A stretch of 64,000 bases of DNA, from contig NZ_FZOY01000007.1 in NCBI RefSeq assembly GCF_900188335.1, positions 186,001 to 250,000 on the forward strand. The letters run 5' to 3'. Source of the stretch: Tropicimonas sediminicola. GTDB taxonomy: Bacteria > Pseudomonadota > Alphaproteobacteria > Rhodobacterales > Rhodobacteraceae. Below the pieces are notes generated by a model, which was not told where the DNA came from, did no database searches, and was given only the letters and a program-made list of their open reading frames with translations. Both the position numbers and the translations under genes were made by a program. Of this stretch, positions 6,810 through 42,985 are shown piece by piece (within the stretch, counting starts at the first letter, position 1; each line of letters begins with the position of its first letter).

Positions 6810-9585
6810 GCCGACGCCCGCCTTCGTTGCACCGGCCGCGCCGCGCGACCTGATCTGCGCGCCCGACACGATCTTCGATGCCGCCGGCCTGCCCGACCGC
6901 CTCGCCGAGGCGGTCGAAGGCAAGGAGGGCACGGGCCGCCGCGCCCGTGCCACCACGATCCTTGCCGAGGCGCTTTCCAACGGCCGGGACGCCATCGAAA
7001 AGGCGTTCGAGGCGTCGCCGCGCGCGGCGCGCCCGCTGGTGCATTCCTATGCCTGGCTGACGGACTGCATCATCCGGAGCGCCTACTGGACGGCCTCGAC
7101 CCTGCTGTCGGACACGCCCGCCAAGCGCGCGTCCCAACGCATGTCACTCGTCGCCGTCGGCGGCTATGGCCGCGGCGAAATGGCCCCCCACTCGGACGTC
7201 GATCTGCTGTTCCTCTGCGAGGATTCGGTCACGCCGGAGGTGGAGCATATCGTCGAGGAGATGCTCTACATCCTGTGGGACCTGCGCCTGAAGGTCGGCC
7301 ACGCCACCCGCACCATCCGCGACTGCCTGAAGCTCGGTCGCGAGGATTTCACGATCCGGACCTCGCTGCTAGAGATGCGCCACCTCGAGGGCGACGCGGC
7401 CCTGACCGAAACCCTCGCGGACCGGCTCTGGAACGAGCTCTTCAAGGGATCGAGCAAGGATTACATCGAGGCCAAGCTGGCCGAGCGGGCCGAGCGTCAC
7501 CGCAAGCAGGGCGGGCAGCGCTACATGCTGGAGCCCAACATCAAGGAGGGCAAGGGCGGCCTGCGCGACCTGCAATCCCTGTTCTGGATCGCGAAATACG
7601 TCAACCGGGTGCAGAGCATCGAGGAACTCGTGGGCCTCGGTGTGTTCACGCCAGAGGAATACTGGGCCTTCGAACAGGCCGAGTCCTTTCTCTGGGCCTG
7701 CCGTGCGCATCTGCATCTGCTGACCGACCGTCCGGTGGACCAGCTGACCTTCGACGTGCAGGTGCCGGTGGCCGAACGGCTCGGTTACACCGACCATTCC
7801 GGGCGCCGGGCGGTCGAGCATTTCATGCAGGATTACTTCCGCCATGCCACGCAGGTAGGCGAGCTGACGCGAATCTTCCTGACCGCGCTGGAGACCGCCC
7901 ATGTGAAGCGGGCGCCCAAGCTCGCCAAGCTTTTCCGCCGCCGCAAGAAGGTCCGCGAAGGCTTCGAGATGGAGAACGGGCGGCTGGCGATCGTCGACGA
8001 GGAGGCGTTCCTCTCCGACAAGCTCAACATCCTGCGGCTCTTCGACGAGGCGCTGCGGACCGACACGCTGATCCATCCCAACGCCATGCGGCTGGTCTCG
8101 GCCAACCTGAACCTGATCGACGCCGACATGCGCCGCAATCCGGAGGCGGCGCGGATCTTCCTTCGCCTCATGCTCGACCACGGCAACCCCGAGCGGGCGC
8201 TCCGGCGCATGAACGAACTCGGCGTCCTTGCCGCCTTCGTGCCGGAGTTCGAGCCGATCGTGGCGATGATGCAGTTCAACTTCTACCACGCCTACACGGT
8301 CGACGAGCACACGATCCAGTGCATCCGCGTCCTTGCGCAGATCGAGCATCGCGAGCTGATCGAGGAGCTGCCCGTCGCCTCGCGCATCCTCGAAAAGGGC
8401 GTGAACCGCCGCGTTCTCTACCTCGCGGTCTTCCTGCACGACATCGGCAAGGGCCGGGTGGAGGACCATTCGATCCTCGGCGCCCGTATCGCCCGCCCGG
8501 TCTGTCAGCGCCTGGGCCTCGACGAGGAGGAGGTCTCCACGGTCGAGTGGCTGGTGCGCTCCCACCTCGTGATGTCGGACATGGCGCAGAAGCGCGACAT
8601 CTCCGATCCGCGCACGGTGCGCGACTTCGCCAAGGCGGTGAAAACCCGCAAGCGGCTCGACCTGCTCACCGTCCTGACGGTCTGCGACATCCGCGGCGTC
8701 GGGCCGGACGTCTGGAACAACTGGAAGGCGCAGCTTCTGCGCTCGCTCCATCGCCAGACCGCCGACGCACTGGAAAACGGGCTGGAAGAGATCAACCGGG
8801 ACAACATCGCCGAGGAGGCCCACGCCGCCCTGCGCGACTCGTTGCAGGACTGGACGCCCGAAGAGATCGAAGCCGAGATCGAGCGGCATTACCCGCCCTA
8901 CTGGCAGGGCCTGCAGAACGAGACCCACCAGATCTTCGCCCGCCTCCTGAAGGGCATCCCGAACGACGAGATCCGGATCGACCTGACCCAGGACCCCGGG
9001 CGGGACGCCACGCGGGCCTGTTTCGCGCTGGCCGATCACCCCGGCATCTTCTCGCGGCTGGCCGGGGCGCTGGCACTGGTGGGCGCCAACGTGGTGGACG
9101 CACGGACCTATACGACCAAGGACGGCTACGCGACCGCGATCTTCTGGATCCAGGACGGCGACGGCGCGCCCTATGAGGCCGACCGCCTGCCGCGCCTTCG
9201 GGCGACGATCCACAAGAGCCTCAAGGGCGAGATCATCACCGGCCAGGCCCTCAGCAAGCGCGACAAGCAGAAACGGCGCGAGCGCGAGTTCCGCTTCCCC
9301 ACGTCGATCCATTTCGACAACGAAGGTTCCGACATCTACACGATCATCGAGGTCGACACCCGCGACCGGCCCGGCCTGCTCTACGATCTGACCCGCACCC
9401 TCGCCAACGCGAATATCTATATTGCGTCGGCCGTGATCGCGACCTATGGCGCTCAGGTAGTGGACACCTTCTACGTGAAGGACATGTTCGGCCTGAAGAT
9501 CCACTCCGAGAGCAAGCGCAGCGCTCTCGAGAAAAAGCTGATCCAGGCCATCGAGCGCGGGGCTGAAAGGGCCAGAACCGAATGA
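6769..9585 (+). CDS. glnD: Bifunctional PII uridylyltransferase / uridylyl-removing enzyme
   Basis: 938 residues. It senses glutamine and adds or removes UMP on PII proteins, controlling nitrogen assimilation. The nucleotidyltransferase motif GGYGRGE...SDVD is near residue 131, the HD hydrolase motif HDIGKG near 557, and two ACT domains (starting near 744 and 857, with DHPGIFSRLAGAL and DRPGLLYDLTRTL) bind glutamine. The frame has no ATG or GTG near its 5' end. TTG at 6769, preceded by AGGT 8 bases upstream, is the best start and lies inside the preceding lipoprotein gene. The stop overlaps the murJ start by 4 bases. Confidence 0.95.
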   Translation: MTLPQEASAASASEPTPAFVAPAAPRDLICAPDTIFDAAGLPDRLAEAVEGKEGTGRRARATTILAEALSNGRDAIEKAFEASPRAARPLVHSYAWLTDCIIRSAYWTASTLLSDTPAKRASQRMSLVAVGGYGRGEMAPHSDVDLLFLCEDSVTPEVEHIVEEMLYILWDLRLKVGHATRTIRDCLKLGREDFTIRTSLLEMRHLEGDAALTETLADRLWNELFKGSSKDYIEAKLAERAERHRKQGGQRYMLEPNIKEGKGGLRDLQSLFWIAKYVNRVQSIEELVGLGVFTPEEYWAFEQAESFLWACRAHLHLLTDRPVDQLTFDVQVPVAERLGYTDHSGRRAVEHFMQDYFRHATQVGELTRIFLTALETAHVKRAPKLAKLFRRRKKVREGFEMENGRLAIVDEEAFLSDKLNILRLFDEALRTDTLIHPNAMRLVSANLNLIDADMRRNPEAARIFLRLMLDHGNPERALRRMNELGVLAAFVPEFEPIVAMMQFNFYHAYTVDEHTIQCIRVLAQIEHRELIEELPVASRILEKGVNRRVLYLAVFLHDIGKGRVEDHSILGARIARPVCQRLGLDEEEVSTVEWLVRSHLVMSDMAQKRDISDPRTVRDFAKAVKTRKRLDLLTVLTVCDIRGVGPDVWNNWKAQLLRSLHRQTADALENGLEEINRDNIAEEAHAALRDSLQDWTPEEIEAEIERHYPPYWQGLQNETHQIFARLLKGIPNDEIRIDLTQDPGRDATRACFALADHPGIFSRLAGALALVGANVVDARTYTTKDGYATAIFWIQDGDGAPYEADRLPRLRATIHKSLKGEIITGQALSKRDKQKRREREFRFPTSIHFDNEGSDIYTIIEVDTRDRPGLLYDLTRTLANANIYIASAVIATYGAQVVDTFYVKDMFGLKIHSESKRSALEKKLIQAIERGAERARTE

Positions 9586-11132
9586 AACCAATCCGCCTGA
9601 TGGCGGGATTCCTGACGGTCGGGGTCTGGACCCTGATGTCGCGGATCCTTGGATTCGTGCGCGATATCGTCATCGCGGCCAAGCTGGGGGACGGGCCTGT
9701 GGCGGAGGCCTTCCTGATCGCCTTCAGCCTTCCAAACATGTTCCGCCGCTTCTTCGCCGAGGGCGCGTTCAACATGGCCTTCGTGCCGATGTTCTCCAAA
9801 AAGCTGGAGCGCGACGAGGACCCGAAGGGCTTTGCCCAGGACGCGTTCAATGGCCTCGCCTCGGTGCTGATCCTGTTCTCGCTGCTGGCGCAGGCGGTGA
9901 TGCCCTGGCTCGTGCTGGCCATGGCCTCGGGCTTTGCCGGCGACGAACGCTTCGGCATGGCGGTGCATTTCGGCCGCATCGCCTTTCCCTACATCCTGTT
10001 CATCTCGCTCGCGGCGTTGCTCTCGGGCGTGCTGAACGCGACGGGCCGCTTTGTTGCGGCCGCCGCGGCGCCGGTTCTGCTGAACGTGATCCTCGTCACC
10101 TCGATGCTGCTGGCCGAGGCGACTGGTGGCGATTTCGGCACCTTTCTCGTCTGGGCCGTGCCGGTCGCGGGCGTGGCGCAGCTCGGGCTGGTCTGGTGGT
10201 CGGCCGCCCGGGCCGGGTTCCGGCTGACGCTCTCGCGGCCGCGGCTGACACCGGACATGAAACGGCTGGCGCGGATCGCCGCCCCGGCGATGCTCGCCGG
10301 CGGCGTGGTGCAGGTGAACCTGCTGGTCGGCCGGCAGGTCGCCAGCTATTTCGACGGCGCGATCCAGTATCTCAACCTCGCCGACCGGCTCTACCAATTG
10401 CCGCTGGGTGTGGTGGCCATCGCCATCGGCGTGGTGCTGCTGCCCGACCTCTCGCGGCGCCTCGCCGCCGACGACACAGTGGGCGGCCGCGCCGCTCTGA
10501 ACCGCGCAACCGAGTTCGCGCTGCTCCTGACCCTGCCCGCCGCGGTTGCGCTGGTGGTCATCGCGGAGCCGATCGTCTCGGTGCTCTACCAGCGCGGCGC
10601 CTTCGGGGCGGAGGCCGCGGCGCGCACGGCGCTGGTCACAGCGATCTACGGGCTCGGCCTGCCCGCATTCGTGCTTCAGAAAGTGTTCCAGCCGCTCTAC
10701 TTCGCGCGTCACGACACGCGGACGCCGTTCAACTACGCGCTCGTCGCGATGGTGCTGAACGCGGTCATTGCCATCGGCGGTTCCTACTTCTTCGGCTTCT
10801 ACGCCGCCGCCTGGGCGACCACCCTCGCGGCCTGGGCGATGGTGCTTCTGCTGTGGCGCGGATCGCGGCGGATGGGCGAGGCCGTGATGCTGGATGACCG
10901 CCTGAAACGGCGCAGCTGGCGCGTCCTGGTAGCCTGCGGCGTGATGGCCGCCTGCCTTCTCGCGACCGAATGGGCCCTGGGCGATGCGCTCTACCAGTCC
11001 GGGGTGCGCTACGCGGCGCTGCTGGTGCTGGTGGGCGTGGGGATCGTGAGCTACTTCGGCGCCGCGCAGTTGGTCGGGGCAACGCAGCTCACCGAGATCC
11101 GCCGCGCGATGCGTCGCAACCACTCCGCCTGA
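9582..11132 (+). CDS. murJ: Lipid II flippase MurJ
   Basis: 516 residues, polytopic inner-membrane protein of the MOP superfamily. It moves lipid-linked peptidoglycan precursor across the membrane. Family features include the N-terminal MSRILGFVRDIVIAAKLG segment, the first-lobe motif FAEGAFNMAFVPMFS, and FQPLYFARHDTRTPF in the second half. The ATG sits within ATGA at the glnD stop, so translation is probably coupled. The glnD-murJ pair is common in alphaproteobacteria. Confidence 0.95.
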   Translation: MKPIRLMAGFLTVGVWTLMSRILGFVRDIVIAAKLGDGPVAEAFLIAFSLPNMFRRFFAEGAFNMAFVPMFSKKLERDEDPKGFAQDAFNGLASVLILFSLLAQAVMPWLVLAMASGFAGDERFGMAVHFGRIAFPYILFISLAALLSGVLNATGRFVAAAAAPVLLNVILVTSMLLAEATGGDFGTFLVWAVPVAGVAQLGLVWWSAARAGFRLTLSRPRLTPDMKRLARIAAPAMLAGGVVQVNLLVGRQVASYFDGAIQYLNLADRLYQLPLGVVAIAIGVVLLPDLSRRLAADDTVGGRAALNRATEFALLLTLPAAVALVVIAEPIVSVLYQRGAFGAEAAARTALVTAIYGLGLPAFVLQKVFQPLYFARHDTRTPFNYALVAMVLNAVIAIGGSYFFGFYAAAWATTLAAWAMVLLLWRGSRRMGEAVMLDDRLKRRSWRVLVACGVMAACLLATEWALGDALYQSGVRYAALLVLVGVGIVSYFGAAQLVGATQLTEIRRAMRRNHSA

Positions 11133-37755: not shown

Positions 37756-37775
37756 ACAATGACTTCGGTCATTGT
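37756..37775. promoter_or_regulatory. Perfect 20-base palindrome upstream of the 2-oxoacid oxidoreductase operon
   Basis: ACAATGACTTCGGTCATTGT: 8-base arms around TTCG, ending 34 bases before the first ATG. The core TGAC-N4-GTCA has the geometry of CRP/FNR-family sites, with A instead of T at the outer position of the FNR consensus. Alternatively, it forms a UUCG-capped hairpin in the leader RNA. Confidence 0.5.
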
Positions 37776-37809: not shown

Positions 37810-38376
37810 ATGATCGAATATCGCATCCATGGCCGCGGGGGACAGGGCAGCGTGGCAGCCGCCTATCTGCTTGCTTCGGCGGCTTTTGAGGCTGGGCACA
37901 CCTGTCAGGCGTTCCCGTCCTTCGGCGCGGAGCGACGCGGTGCCCCCGTCACCGCCTTCGTCCGCATAGACAATCAACCGATCCACCTGCGCAGCCAGGT
38001 CCGCACGCCGGACTTCCTGATCGTGCAGGACGACACGCTGCTGCTCGACAGGGGGATCACCGACGGGCTGAAGCCGGGAGGCGCGATGATCGTGAACTCC
38101 CGCCGCTCGGACGAGGATGTGGCGGAGGCGTTCTCCTGCAGAACGAAGTGCATCCCGGCGACCGAGCTGGCCCTCGACTACATCGGCCGGCCGATCCCCA
38201 ACACCGCCCTGCTCGCCGCCTTCCTCACCATGACCGGACACCTGCCGGTCGACGCCCTGGCGGCCGCGCTGAAGGGCCGGTTCAAGGGCGCGGTCCTGGA
38301 AAAGAACCTCGCGCTGGTCGACGCCGTGGCGGGCATGGTTCCCGCCGGCGCCTGGAAGGAGAGCGAAGATGCGTGA
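37810..38376 (+). CDS. 2-oxoacid:acceptor oxidoreductase, gamma subunit
   Basis: 188 residues from ATG 37810; an upstream ATG at 37759 would place the palindrome inside the gene and is less likely. It begins MIEYRIHGRGGQGSVAAAYL, the hallmark of POR gamma subunits, followed by FPSFGAERRGAPVTAFVRI. The gamma subunit helps form the coenzyme A site and subunit contacts. It is the first gene of a four-gene operon and overlaps the alpha-subunit gene by 8 bases. Confidence 0.92.
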   Translation: MIEYRIHGRGGQGSVAAAYLLASAAFEAGHTCQAFPSFGAERRGAPVTAFVRIDNQPIHLRSQVRTPDFLIVQDDTLLLDRGITDGLKPGGAMIVNSRRSDEDVAEAFSCRTKCIPATELALDYIGRPIPNTALLAAFLTMTGHLPVDALAAALKGRFKGAVLEKNLALVDAVAGMVPAGAWKESEDA

Positions 38377-39538
38377 AGCCCTCGAAGGCAGCCAGGCCAT
38401 CGCCCGCGCGGTGGCGCTCTGCGAGCCCGACGTCGTCGCCGCCTACCCGATCACCCCGCAGACCCATATCGTCGAGAACCTCTCCAAGCTGGTCGCAGAC
38501 GGCGAGCTGCACACCGAATTCGTGAGCGTGGAGAGCGAGTTCTCCGCAGCCTCCGTGGTGCTGGGCGCCGCCGCCTCCGGTGCGCGCGCCTATACCGCCT
38601 CGTCTTCCCAGGGCGTGCTGCTGATGGCCGAGGTGCTGTTCAACATCGCCGGGATGCGCATCCCGCTGGTGATGACGGTTGCGAACCGCGCCGTCTCTGC
38701 GCCGCTCAACATCTGGAACGACCATGCCGACAGCATGGCGGTGCGCGACAGCGGCTGGATCCAGCTCCATTGCGAGAACAACCAGGAAGCGGTGGACACC
38801 ACGATCCAGGCCTTCCGGATCAGCCAGGAAACCGACCTGCCGGTGATGGTCTGCATGGACGGTTTCGTGCTGACCCACACGATGGAGGTGATCGACATCC
38901 CCACCATCGCGCAGGTCCGAAAGTGGCTGCCGCCCTTCGAGTTCAAGCGCGCGCTCGATCCGAGCGACCCGAAGTCGCTGGGCGCGCTGGTCGGGCCGGA
39001 CTTCTTCCCCGAAGTGCGCCATTCGCACCACGCCGCCGTGACCAAGGCCCTGCCCGTGATCGAAAAGACCGACCGCTCCTGGGCGCGTGCCTTCAAGCGC
39101 GGCTGCGGCGGGCTGCTGACCACGGAAGGGCCGAAGGACGCGAAGATCGGCATCATCGCCATGGGCTCCACCGTCGGCACCCTGCGCTCCGGCCTCGCCA
39201 AGACCGAGGACGCCGGCGTCCGGCTCATCAAGCTGCGCGCGTTCCGGCCACTGCCGGAAGAGGCGCTGCGGGAGGCGACACGCGGCCTGGACCACCTGAT
39301 CGTCATTGACCGGGCGATCTCTCCCGGCCTCGGCGGCATCCTCGGCACGGAGATCAAGGCGGTGCTCTACGGCACCCCGGACGCGCCGCGCATCCACAAC
39401 CACGCCATCGGCCTCGGCGGGCGGGACATTCCCGAAACCATCGTGGGCGATCTGCTCTCGGCGATCGAGGACCCCGATGCCACGCCGTTCTCCGTCTTCG
39501 ACGCCGATCTGACCATGCTGCCCCCGGAGGACAGATGA
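38369..39538 (+). CDS. 2-oxoacid:acceptor oxidoreductase, alpha subunit (pyruvate type)
   Basis: 389 residues. N-terminal pyrimidine-binding domain of PFOR-like enzymes: GSQAIARAVALCEPDVVAAY with PITPQTHIVE, and the conserved VESEFSAASVVLGAAASGARA loop whose Glu activates thiamine diphosphate. A second domain with MGSTVGTLRSGL and LRAFRPLPEE follows. It catalyses, with beta and gamma, CoA-dependent oxidative decarboxylation of a 2-oxoacid, delivering electrons to iron-sulfur carriers. The PITPQT motif and the beta-subunit features favour pyruvate. ATGA overlap with the beta gene. Confidence 0.92.
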   Translation: MREALEGSQAIARAVALCEPDVVAAYPITPQTHIVENLSKLVADGELHTEFVSVESEFSAASVVLGAAASGARAYTASSSQGVLLMAEVLFNIAGMRIPLVMTVANRAVSAPLNIWNDHADSMAVRDSGWIQLHCENNQEAVDTTIQAFRISQETDLPVMVCMDGFVLTHTMEVIDIPTIAQVRKWLPPFEFKRALDPSDPKSLGALVGPDFFPEVRHSHHAAVTKALPVIEKTDRSWARAFKRGCGGLLTTEGPKDAKIGIIAMGSTVGTLRSGLAKTEDAGVRLIKLRAFRPLPEEALREATRGLDHLIVIDRAISPGLGGILGTEIKAVLYGTPDAPRIHNHAIGLGGRDIPETIVGDLLSAIEDPDATPFSVFDADLTMLPPEDR

Positions 39539-40611
39539 TGAGCGACAACGACACCGATCAGAGGGCCGAGCGACTGGCCGAGCTTCGCGAGAAATTCGGG
39601 CGCCACCCCGTCGAGCCGAAGAAACCCTTCCACCAGGGCGCCTCGCTGCGCGACCGACAGCCCCGGTTCTGCGCCCTCGAGAGCGGCCACCGGGCCTGCC
39701 AGGGCTGCGGCGAAGCGCTGGCCGCGCGGCTGGTGATGGAATGCGCCGGTCCTGACGTGATGGTCGCCAATGCCACCGGCTGCCTCGAGGTCTTCACCAC
39801 GCCCTGGCCGCAATCGGCCTGGCAGGTACCCTGGGTCCATTCCCTGTTCGAGAACTCCGCGGCGGTCGCCTCCGGCATGGAGGCGGCGATGAAGGCCAGG
39901 GGCAAGAATACCAAGATCCTCGCCTTCGGCGGCGACGGCGGCACCTACGACATCGGCTTCCAGGCGCTGTCGGGGATGCTGGAGCGGTATCACAACATCC
40001 TCTACGTCTGCTACGACAACGAGGCCTACATGAACACCGGCATCCAGCGGTCGTCCTCGACGCCCCACGCGGCCTCGACCACGACCTCGCCGGCCGGGCC
40101 CGAGCGAATGGGCAAGCGGCACCTCAAGAAGGACCTGCTCGGCATCATCGCCGCCCACCACATCCCCTATTCCGCCTCTGCCTCGGTCGCCTATCCGGCC
40201 GATCTGCAGCGCAAGGTGCGCTATGCGATGGGGATCAACGGGCCGACCTTCCTTGTGGTCCACTCGCCTTGCCCGCTCGGCTGGAAACACGACAGTCACC
40301 TGACCATCGAGGTCGCCCGGCGGGCGGTGGAATGCGGGCTGTTCCCGATCGTCGAGATGGAGCGGGGCGAGCTGGCAAACGTGATGCCGATCCGCGAGGT
40401 GCGGCCGGTGAAGGACTACCTCGCGCTTCAGGGCCGCTTCGGCCACCTGATGAAGCCCGACGACCCGCGCGCGGTTGAGGAACTCACCCACCTGCAGGCG
40501 CTGGCCGACTACAACATCACGTATTTCAACCTGCGCGGCGAAGGCGAGGATCCGGCCGACACGGTCGGCATCAGCCAGGTCGCACGCGACCGCGCAGCAG
40601 GGGAGGCCTGA
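39535..40611 (+). CDS. 2-oxoacid:acceptor oxidoreductase, TPP-binding beta subunit (pyruvate type)
   Basis: 358 residues. The cluster-binding cysteines are in RACQGCGEAL, NATGCLEVF and HSPCPLGW, giving the four ligands for one [4Fe-4S]. The thiamine diphosphate and Mg motif is FGGDGGTYDIGFQALSG with the partner YDNEAYMNTGIQRS, a form typical of pyruvate-specific PorB. An N-terminal extension of about 40 charged residues precedes the core. Enzymes of this group are usually oxygen-sensitive, so its presence suggests micro-oxic or anaerobic use. Only 1 base separates it from the flavoprotein gene. Confidence 0.93.
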   Translation: MMSDNDTDQRAERLAELREKFGRHPVEPKKPFHQGASLRDRQPRFCALESGHRACQGCGEALAARLVMECAGPDVMVANATGCLEVFTTPWPQSAWQVPWVHSLFENSAAVASGMEAAMKARGKNTKILAFGGDGGTYDIGFQALSGMLERYHNILYVCYDNEAYMNTGIQRSSSTPHAASTTTSPAGPERMGKRHLKKDLLGIIAAHHIPYSASASVAYPADLQRKVRYAMGINGPTFLVVHSPCPLGWKHDSHLTIEVARRAVECGLFPIVEMERGELANVMPIREVRPVKDYLALQGRFGHLMKPDDPRAVEELTHLQALADYNITYFNLRGEGEDPADTVGISQVARDRAAGEA

Positions 40612-40612
40612 G

Positions 40613-42322
40613 ATGGTTGTCATCAACCGAGGCGCACATGCCGAACCCGGCACCTCGCTGGAATTCAAGACCGGCAACTGGCGGTCCAGCGAATGCCCCG
40701 TCCACGTCCATGCCAAGGCTCCCTGCCACGCCGCCTGCCCCGCGGGGGAGGACCAGCAGGCCTGGTTCGCCTGGCTGCAGGAAGGCCACGTCGAGGAGGC
40801 CTGGCGCGAGCTGGTCTCGAAGAACCCGCTGCCGTCGGTAACGGGCCGTGTCTGCCCCCACCCCTGCGAGACCGCCTGCAACCGCACCAGCATCGATTCC
40901 GCGCTGGCGATCCACAACGTCGAGCGCTGGCTGGGGGACGAGGCGGTGGCCAAGGGCTGGGCCTATCCGGTGGAGGCCCCGGCCGAGGACGCGCCCTGCG
41001 TCGCCATCGTGGGCGCCGGCCCCGGCGGGCTCTCGGCGGCCTATCACTGCCTGCGCAACGGGCTCCGGGCCGAGATCTTCGAGGCGCTGCCCGAGGCCGG
41101 CGGCCTGCTGCGCTCGGCGATCCCGCCCACCCGCCTGCCCCGACCGGCGCTCGACGCGGAGCTGAACCGCCTGCTGGCCCTTCCCGGCATCAAGCTCAAC
41201 CTGCGTTGCAAGCTGGGTCGCGACGTCGGGCTCGACGAACTCAAGCACAGCCACGCCGCGGTGATCCTCGCGCCGGGCTGCGGCCTCAGCAAGGAGTGGA
41301 ACATCGACGGCGCCGTGCCGACGGACCTGCACGAGGGGCTGCACCTGCTGCGCGAGTTCATGGACCACGGCGAGTTCCCGGAGGCCCGCCGCGTCGCCGT
41401 CCACGGCGGCGGCAACACCGCCATCGACCTCTGCCGGCTGATGAAACGTCACGGCGTGGAGCAGGTCACGCTGATCACCGCCTCCGCCCTGCCCGGGCCG
41501 GACACCGATCCGGAGGACCTCATCAACGTGGTCCCCCGAGAACTGGAGGAAGCGCTCGAGGAAGGTATCGAGATCATCGAGCACGCCACGGTCAAGCGTC
41601 TGATCATGAAGGGCAGCCGGATGACCGGCGTGGAGATTGTCGCCCTCAAGAAGCTGCTCGGCACCGACGGGCGGATGCACCGGGTACAGTTCGAGGGCAC
41701 CGAGCGCGTGGTCTCGGTGGACATGGTGATCCCCTGCATCGGCGAACGCGTCGACCCTGAAGGCATGCACAACCTGATGAACCGCTGGCACTATCTCGAC
41801 GCGCGCGACCGCTGGAGCCGCACGCCGCAGGAGAACGTCCACGCCATCGGCGACGCCCGCGGCGACCGTGGCACCGTGGCCGAGGCGATCGGGGATGGGC
41901 GGCTGGCGGTGGAGGCTGTCGCGGCGCGGCTGCAAGGCCGGGCCGACCCTGTCGAGGACACGCGCCCGGAGATGCCGGCAAGCGGCCTCAACCCGGTCTA
42001 CTTCGGCCGCATCTCGCGCACCGCCGTGCCCAAGCTGCCGGTGGCGGAGCGGACGTTCGAAGCCGAGATCGAGGGCGACATCGGCCGTATGGCCGCCCTG
42101 CGCGAGGCCACGCGTTGCCTGAGCTGCGGCAATTGCCTGGCCTGCGACAATTGCTGGGTCATGTGCCCCGACAACGCGGTAATCAAGACGGCGGAGCTGG
42201 CCTCCGACGGGTCGCATTACGTGTTCGACCTGGATTTCTGCAAGGGCTGCGGCATCTGCGCCAAGGAATGCCCGACCGGCTTCATCCAGATGGCCGAGGA
42301 CACCTGGCACGAAGGCGATTGA
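40613..42322 (+). CDS. GltD-like NAD(P)-binding flavoprotein fused to a C-terminal 2[4Fe-4S] ferredoxin domain
   Basis: 569 residues from ATG 40613. N-terminal Fer4_20 region with cysteines in APCHAACP and GRVCPHPCETACNR; FAD-binding VAIVGAGPGGLSAAYHC near 131; NAD(P)-binding VAVHGGGNTAIDLCRLMKR near 262; and after residue 500 two ferredoxin motifs, CLSCGNCLACDNCWVMCP and CKGCGICAKECP. The tail replaces the separate delta (ferredoxin-like) subunit of classic PFORs, and the flavoprotein part would pass electrons to or from NAD(P). A GltD-like third component of this kind is known from 2-oxoglutarate:NADP oxidoreductase of aromatic-degrading betaproteobacteria; NAD(P) linkage here is inferred. 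Confidence 0.9.
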   Translation: MVVINRGAHAEPGTSLEFKTGNWRSSECPVHVHAKAPCHAACPAGEDQQAWFAWLQEGHVEEAWRELVSKNPLPSVTGRVCPHPCETACNRTSIDSALAIHNVERWLGDEAVAKGWAYPVEAPAEDAPCVAIVGAGPGGLSAAYHCLRNGLRAEIFEALPEAGGLLRSAIPPTRLPRPALDAELNRLLALPGIKLNLRCKLGRDVGLDELKHSHAAVILAPGCGLSKEWNIDGAVPTDLHEGLHLLREFMDHGEFPEARRVAVHGGGNTAIDLCRLMKRHGVEQVTLITASALPGPDTDPEDLINVVPRELEEALEEGIEIIEHATVKRLIMKGSRMTGVEIVALKKLLGTDGRMHRVQFEGTERVVSVDMVIPCIGERVDPEGMHNLMNRWHYLDARDRWSRTPQENVHAIGDARGDRGTVAEAIGDGRLAVEAVAARLQGRADPVEDTRPEMPASGLNPVYFGRISRTAVPKLPVAERTFEAEIEGDIGRMAALREATRCLSCGNCLACDNCWVMCPDNAVIKTAELASDGSHYVFDLDFCKGCGICAKECPTGFIQMAEDTWHEGD

Positions 42323-42376: not shown

Positions 42377-42985
42377 CTAGTCCGGACGCTGCCGGGCCAG
42401 CACCAGCAGCCGCACGCCCAGCATGGCGGCAAAACTGATCGCCGCTGCCGGACCTTCGGGCGCGACCTCCAGCAGCAGCAGGTAGAGCGCGCCTCCGGCC
42501 AGCGAGATCGTGGCGTAGAGATCCTGCTTCAAGACCAGCGGGGTCACGTTGCACAACAGGTCGCGGATCATCCCGCCGACGGTTCCGGTGATGCAGCCGA
42601 TGATCACCGCGATGATCGCCGAGGTGTCCGCCTGTTGCGCGACCCGAACCCCCATCAGCGTGAAGAGCGCGAGCCCCATCGCATCGAGCCGCATCAGCCA
42701 CGCCAGCCGCCGGCCATTTCCCGCGGCCATCCGCGTGGCGACGAAATACCCGGCGATGGCGACCGGAACGGTGGTCACAATGAAGGTCAGGTCGTTGATC
42801 CAGAACACGGGCAGACGTCCCAGCAGCATGTCGCGCACCGTGCCGCCGCCAAGCGCCGCGGCGATGGCAAGCACCGTCGCGCCAAACAGGTCAAGCTCGT
42901 GGCGGACTGCCTGGATTGCGGCCGAGGCGGCCATGACGGCGGTGGCCAGGACCATCAGGCCGAGGCTGAGATATTCGAGCGTCAC
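42377..42985 (-). CDS. Trimeric intracellular cation channel family (YicG-like) membrane protein
   Basis: 202 residues. The tandem three-helix TRIC repeats are visible: FGATVLAIAAALGGGTVRDML in the first half and GCITGTVGGMIRDLLCN in the second, each with the GGGxxRD-type glycine kink. Eukaryotic TRIC forms potassium channels; bacterial relatives (formerly UPF0126) may conduct glycine or ions. It is encoded 10 bases after a J-domain gene on the minus strand. Confidence 0.88.
   Translation of the reverse strand: MTLEYLSLGLMVLATAVMAASAAIQAVRHELDLFGATVLAIAAALGGGTVRDMLLGRLPVFWINDLTFIVTTVPVAIAGYFVATRMAAGNGRRLAWLMRLDAMGLALFTLMGVRVAQQADTSAIIAVIIGCITGTVGGMIRDLLCNVTPLVLKQDLYATISLAGGALYLLLLEVAPEGPAAAISFAAMLGVRLLVLARQRPD

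Follow-up and report, generated by a model that had tools for sequence, protein, structure and literature searches.

A four-gene pyruvate-type oxidoreductase operon in Tropicimonas sediminicola, with a flavoprotein-ferredoxin fusion in place of the delta subunit, as a candidate pyruvate:NAD(P)+ oxidoreductase

To which electron carrier does a pyruvate oxidoreductase deliver its electrons if its ferredoxin subunit is part of a flavoprotein? This question is raised by four genes at positions 37810–42322 of a 64,000-nucleotide stretch of Tropicimonas sediminicola DNA (contig NZ_FZOY01000007.1, positions 186,001 to 250,000; hereafter the window), which belongs to a genome of 5.17 Mb where the locus is listed as G000:C9. 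All four lie on the + strand, as do all other features given below unless stated. An initial annotation of the window had read them as the gamma, alpha and thiamine pyrophosphate (TPP)-binding beta subunits of an oxidoreductase followed by a flavoprotein of 569 residues, and the coordinates and the Pfam and NCBIfam matches bear out its account of place, strand and length. A few bases are shared between gamma and alpha and between alpha and beta, and the flavoprotein gene starts one base past the beta stop codon, so the four are read as one operon. We think it probable that this operon encodes a linear pyruvate:NAD(P)+ oxidoreductase, likely to be NAD+-linked in the clade to which the window belongs, which would complement the pyruvate dehydrogenase (PDH) complex when oxygen is low and would not bifurcate electrons. 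The parts are read from the sequence; from them we infer the substrate, the acceptor, the order of the electron wire and the complex.

For all three core subunits the best-scoring NCBIfam families are of the pyruvate type, not of the 2-oxoglutarate type. PorG, the gamma subunit (188 aa, 37810–38376), matches the Pfam family POR (PF01558, 134.5 bits) and exceeds the cut-off of TIGR02175 (183.4 bits; cut-off 81.1). PorA, the alpha subunit (389 aa, 38369–39538), has POR_N and PFOR_II domains (PF01855, PF17147) with the motif YPITPQT and residue R107, and PorB, the TPP-binding beta subunit (358 aa, 39535–40611), has a TPP_enzyme_C domain and one [4Fe-4S] site (C55, C58, C83, C246). A single solved pyruvate:ferredoxin oxidoreductase (PFOR), PDB 9bt4, matches alpha (E 1.2e-98), beta (E 8.1e-103) and gamma (E 5.3e-50) as well as the ferredoxin domain of the flavoprotein. 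R107 is present in 97 of the 100 alpha rows examined (those longer than 250 aa, of 118), the other three having gaps or X, and the four beta cysteines are kept in 102, 102, 102 and 103, respectively, of the 103 rows examined (those longer than 250 aa, of 109). The initial annotation had named 2-oxoglutarate oxidoreductases as the nearest relatives. That placement is not supported: the cores are pyruvate-type, and a locus with a fused alpha subunit and a GltD-like protein lies elsewhere in the genome (G000:C29).

The fourth gene (40613–42322) encodes a GltD/NfnB-like FAD-NAD(P) module with a PorD-type ferredoxin domain fused to its C-terminus, as Pfam, NCBIfam, AlphaFold2 and Foldseek indicate. 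Pfam finds Fer4_20 and Pyr_redox_2, with 4Fe-4S dicluster models at the C-terminus, and the NCBIfam match to PorD covers residues 500–562 (PorD_Arch 65.5 bits, cut-off 120; TIGR02179 59.7 bits, cut-off 60.05). The AlphaFold2 model has a mean pLDDT of 90.2 and a pTM of 0.89, and is confident except for residues 1–13. Its top Foldseek matches are NfnABC (9bov) and StnC (8oh5), both with a TMq of 0.77 and with rmsd values of 6.2 and 8.5; among PDB entries, the body of the protein matches NfnABC, StnC, NfnB and GltD. The FAD-binding motif GAGPGG occupies residues 134–139 (41012–41029) and the NAD(P)-binding motif GGGNTA residues 265–270 (41405–41422). No separate gene for PorD, the delta ferredoxin, lies in the operon (37810–42322). 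The family scores and the PorD match thus agree with the earlier description of a pyruvate-type oxidoreductase in which a GltD-like flavoprotein-ferredoxin fusion replaces delta, and because of this replacement the direct link to NAD(P) that had been proposed is likely.

The arrangement of iron-sulphur ligands in the flavoprotein is unlike that of NfnB, whose N-terminus reads RCx2Cx4Cx3CP (PMC6405883). Of the N-terminal Fe-S motif named in the initial annotation only half is present, as a segment from C38 to C89 (C38-x3-C42-P and G-R-V-C81-x3-C85-x3-C89; 40724–40879), and the leading RCx2C half is absent from it; an RCx2C instead stands just ahead of the ferredoxin domain, as R501-C502-x2-C505 (42113–42127), and is kept in 132 of 132 flavoproteins. 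The 2[4Fe-4S] domain that follows (42134–42271) contributes C508, C511, C514 and C518 together with C543, C546, C549 and C553, all eight likewise kept in 132/132. Alignment to StnC puts E104 (40922–40924; 131/132) at the place of the NfnB glutamate that ligates the FAD-proximal cluster, a position at which StnC has K170; PMC10482914 describes a cluster-ligand role for glutamate in NfnB and for lysine in StnC. The entire set of 15 cysteines plus E104 is retained in 131 of the 132 flavoproteins, the sole exception being a broken gene (L042). The 132-protein set and the 90-locus set used below each include one duplicate (L032/L096, same genome) and one near-duplicate pair (L111/L114).

These 16 residues would be enough for four clusters in the flavoprotein. 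Two would be ordinary ferredoxin clusters, C42, C81, C85 and E104 would hold a FAD-proximal cluster, and C38, C89, C502 and C505 would hold a cluster bridging the two ends of the chain. In the mechanism that we propose, pyruvate and CoA would be oxidised at TPP to acetyl-CoA and CO2, and single electrons would leave through the beta cluster and then the two PorD-type clusters. From there they would pass by way of the bridging and the FAD-proximal clusters to FAD, which would hand a hydride to NAD(P)+, probably NAD+ in the window's clade. A linear path between NADPH, FAD and clusters through the same domain is described for StnC in PMC10482914.

The four-gene set recurs across several phyla. 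Among 90 homologous loci, which are the best-scoring ones from longer lists, 70 have at least 3.6 kb upstream and 67 of these contain all four genes. The window's gene order is found in 69 of 73 complete sets, with gamma-flavoprotein-alpha-beta in three and gamma-alpha-flavoprotein-beta in one. Flavoprotein orthologues of 73–89% identity sit in four-gene sets of three other genomes, so the arrangement is far from chance. In the order, a beta homologue (E <= 1e-40) occurs in 9 of 292 sampled genomes, the window's own included, and the complete four-gene set is present in all eight others, arranged in two as gamma-flavoprotein-alpha-beta. Flavoprotein matches (E <= 1e-75) were found in 16/385 sampled genomes of the class and 60/398 of the phylum, again counting the window's own. 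Named genomes hold at least 572 confirmed relatives, and the best 80 of these include Gallionella, Rhodocyclaceae, Nitrospirota, Actinomycetota, Planctomycetota and one Chloroflexota record.

Within the genus, a full-length flavoprotein is present in three of nine genomes, and in these three the operon occupies one common site, between an exonuclease-like gene (PF03372) and a djlA-like gene (labelled by eye). In five of the nine the two flanks lie approximately 20–700 bases apart with no operon homologue between them, and in the remaining one (G003) this site is at a contig end. The pattern is explained equally well by a single gain and by several losses. Recent arrival on a plasmid is unlikely, given the one shared site; a plasmid collection yielded five records, all below 60% identity.

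A flavoprotein tree of 57 rows, hand-picked from the 132 with all clade members included, unites the window and 14 others in one group (SH-aLRT 100). Its members come from Chromatiales, Thioalkalivibrio, Thiorhodospira, Thiotrichaceae, Gallionellaceae, unplaced Gammaproteobacteria, Nitrospirae and a few Alphaproteobacteria. The same split appears in a beta tree of 46 rows (of the 57 loci, eight had no beta row and three were dropped as shorter than 200 residues), in which the clade has 13 rows (SH-aLRT 99). Both trees were made by a quick method, and long branches meet outside the clade in the beta tree. Both trees recover the window's clade, so the genes have moved together. The flavoprotein type belongs to an existing unnamed NCBI family, PRK12771, and the layout is widespread in bacteria. 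All four clade members tested fall below the PRK12771 cut-off of 516 bits (window 458.9, L036 511.7, L039 484.7, L158 500.6), and the five non-clade members scored, at 537–790 bits, all lie above it.

The clade differs from its relatives at the coenzyme site. NADPH-dependent StnC, Thermotoga maritima NfnB and a bacterial GltD align with YRR[TD] past the second Rossmann strand, a motif whose role is in NADPH binding. Residues 284–308 of the window flavoprotein (41462–41536) form an altered loop that replaces the YRRTRExMPAHD type. A YRR-like motif ([YF]R[RNK]) is present in none of the 15 clade members and in 105 of 117 homologues outside the clade, and the segment 281–310 has 27–31 residues in the clade versus a median of 22 (21–30) in the others. 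Some of the 12 other exceptions carry at the YRR site an acidic residue, which is typical there of NAD-binding enzymes. The lack of YRR hints at NAD+ as the acceptor in the window's clade, but the window sequence has no such acid at this site, so that NAD+ is at most the likelier reading. In a separate sub-group of flavoproteins (L033, L034, L125) the YRR arginines give way to an acidic residue, perhaps an independent switch to NAD+; L033 and L034 have the order gamma-flavoprotein-alpha-beta.

The genomic setting is compatible with a possible role at low oxygen, next to a PDH complex used aerobically. The E1-alpha subunit of PDH scores over the cut-off in 9/9 genus genomes, including that of the window. 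The periplasmic nitrate reductase gene napA is over its cut-off in 9 of the 10 genomes searched (present in the window genome, G000, absent from G005), and narG in G253 only. Upstream of the operon is a perfect palindrome, ACAATGAC-TTCG-GTCATTGT (37756–37775), with a core TGA-N6-TCA of the CRP/FNR kind at 37760–37771. This core, at −51 in the window, stands at the same aligned place in both sister species that bear the operon (G007 and G005; two mismatches each), where the core only, and not the full palindrome, is kept. FNR-like sites were searched for against the consensus TTGAT-N4-ATCAA at those 53 of the 90 loci that have 200 bases ahead of a recognised gamma start; L096 had been dropped beforehand and the rows are not independent. 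Sites with at most one mismatch occur in 7/53 operon upstream regions versus 10/488 controls (Fisher p 5e-4; shuffle mean 0.27), and those with at most two in 19/53 versus 58/488 other upstream regions (p 2.4e-5); for perfect sites, the difference between 2/53 and 3/488 is not significant (p 0.08). The clade alone gives 1/12 and 5/12 at one and two mismatches (shuffle means 0.05 and 0.82). The initial annotation had found an oxygen-sensitive system surprising in this setting. Given the excess of FNR-like sites in this operon type and the presence of napA and PDH E1, it is no surprise.

Several features adjoin the operon or resemble parts of it. A gene of the UPF0126/glycine-transporter type (PF03458) lies next to it on the − strand (42380–42985). 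In two closely related Gammaproteobacteria of the collection, a gene for an FtsH-type protease is directly 3′ of the operon (L085, 9801–11714, by Pfam; L042, 9660–11591, by its matching start). Each of the three PF01558 loci in the window genome has a GltD-like neighbour. At G000:C29:98015–102472 (L012), a fused alpha of 643 aa, a beta of the KorB type (329 aa) and a GltD-like protein of 502 aa form a KorABC-like layout. At G000:C29:166527–174277 (L013), a one-chain PFOR-like protein of 1664 aa is followed by a PRK12779 protein of 919 aa, which combines a GltD module with a dihydroorotate dehydrogenase B (DHODB)-type FAD/NAD and Fe-S module. If any of these loci bifurcates electrons, this pairing of a pyruvate-type oxidoreductase with a fused Nfn-like protein is more likely to do so than the operon described here.

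A number of observations weigh against a linear pyruvate:NAD(P)+ oxidoreductase as we describe it. With each of the three core subunits the pyruvate equivalog model stays under its curated cut-off (PorA_Arch for alpha, 420 against 550; PRK11865 for beta, 372 against 405; PRK08534 for gamma, 208 against 225), as does PRK12771 for the window flavoprotein. We infer the cluster ligands from conservation, and C502 and C505 might serve another cluster instead. The assignment of NAD+ follows from an absent motif and not from a positive signature for this coenzyme. With four mismatches in ten, the FNR-like site of the window itself is poor. Within the genus, the distribution of napA does not follow that of the operon: napA is present in 6/6 genomes without the operon and missing from one (G005) of the three that have it. 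Finally, in Thiorhodospira sibirica (L039) a clade flavoprotein with intact motifs (8001–9695) has no gamma, alpha or beta match on either strand of the 17.7-kb locus, and the protein may therefore also work with free ferredoxin.

This last case lends itself to an explanation that we consider quite unlikely, in which the core is an ordinary ferredoxin-linked pyruvate oxidoreductase, the flavoprotein is a co-transcribed but separate ferredoxin:NAD(P)+ reductase, and free ferredoxin carries electrons between them. GltD-type proteins do exchange electrons with ferredoxin elsewhere, as in Nfn according to PMC6405883. However, the exit ferredoxin of the core is here part of the flavoprotein chain, no PorD gene stands apart from it in the operon, and the set is linked in 67/70 loci. 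The same machine acting on another 2-oxoacid, such as 2-oxoisovalerate or an aryl-glyoxylate, is unlikely as well, if a conceivable variant. The beta subunit scores nearly as well with the branched-chain model PRK11864 (316.8) as with the pyruvate model PRK11865 (372.2), and the four clade neighbour genes that were assigned with Pfam, namely an FtsH-type protease, inositol phosphatase, PPK2 and tRNA synthetase, point to no pathway. Against this, all three subunits score best as pyruvate-type, the phenylglyoxylate models stay far under cut-off (139/300, 257/700, 203/700), and a Thr stands where oxalate oxidoreductase has the Arg of YPIRP.

The initial annotation had also allowed for electron bifurcation and reductive carboxylation, and neither fares well. 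An enzyme that bifurcates or confurcates with both NAD(P) and ferredoxin might be expected from the likeness to NfnB and from R174, which aligns with R239 of StnC and R201 of NfnB and is kept in 132/132, and the Nfn-like fusion at L013 could act in trans. Yet none of the four operon genes encodes an NfnA-like partner bearing a [2Fe-2S] cluster and a second FAD, so that the operon itself shows only a linear path; the FAD of StnC, which shares this Arg and the domain, does not bifurcate, as reported in PMC10482914; and pyruvate oxidation with NAD+ runs downhill and needs no coupling. Bifurcation by this operon is accordingly very improbable. Equally hard to credit is CO2 fixation by the enzyme, working as a pyruvate synthase at the expense of NAD(P)H. 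Pyruvate oxidoreductases are reversible with ferredoxin, and the clade relatives include Thioalkalivibrio and Gallionellaceae, which are autotroph lineages, but from NAD(P)H and standard potentials the reaction would be uphill by approximately 35 kJ/mol.

If the operon does encode such a linear enzyme, direct conversion of pyruvate to acetyl-CoA and NAD(P)H by a soluble system that needs neither lipoate nor free ferredoxin would be open to many facultative aerobes, and annotation as a ferredoxin-linked oxidoreductase would predict the wrong electron carrier. A narrower proposal, which we regard as possible rather than probable, is that the clade constitutes a distinct NAD+-specific pyruvate oxidoreductase, an Fe-S counterpart of the PDH complex. 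Its electrons would run through five [4Fe-4S] clusters, of which one would be shared by the N-terminus and the beginning of the fused ferredoxin domain. Bacteria that are otherwise aerobic would turn it on when oxygen is low, and sister clades of the same layout would use NADP+. The split between YRR and non-YRR clades is a natural test of the choice between NADP+ and NAD+. Searches of an open-licence library showed no earlier description of this operon and no biochemical account of the PRK12771 type, which does not prove that there is none.

Among known systems, PRK12771 (NF009410, ‘NAD(P)-binding protein’) has the same architecture from end to end, with residues 11–562 aligned on 24–564 of 566. 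The five scored non-clade members are found in the same kind of operon, and porG-porA-porB adjoins the flavoprotein here too; the window differs in its full-length match under the cut-off and in the clade's lack of YRR and longer loop. The four-subunit pyruvate:ferredoxin oxidoreductase (9bt4) is matched in alpha, beta, gamma and the delta-type domain, but its delta is a separate subunit, whereas that of the window is fused to the flavoprotein. NfnABC (9bov, 9n5u), StnC (8oh5) and NfnB (4ylf, 5jca) share the module of FAD, NAD(P) and two clusters and are the best structural matches. Membership in Nfn itself was rejected, for the NfnB-like module is present without an NfnA-type bifurcating partner in the operon; the flavoprotein is here coupled to a pyruvate oxidoreductase, and NfnB, unlike it, keeps RCx2C at its N-terminus (PMC6405883).

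The 2-oxoglutarate:NADP+ oxidoreductase KorABC of Azoarcus and Thauera is likewise an oxoacid oxidoreductase with a GltD-like subunit. It has a fused alpha and its GltD subunit has no ferredoxin domain; gamma and alpha are separate in the window and reach 50.6 and 107.7 bits with the OAFO-type model TIGR03710 (cut-off 482.75), and we rejected this assignment. Phenylglyoxylate dehydrogenase PadEFGHI also has a flavoprotein subunit, and its NCBIfam models are named NADH-dependent; PadE, PadG, PadI and PadF were all far under cut-off (139/300, 257/700, 203/700 and 38/150), and membership in this group was likewise rejected. The pyruvate:NADP+ oxidoreductase (PNO) of Euglena carries a cytochrome-P450-reductase-type domain on its single chain, a flavoprotein unrelated to that of the window. 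As we propose for the window operon, this enzyme links pyruvate oxidation to a pyridine nucleotide and is able to coexist with PDH, according to PMC8611851.

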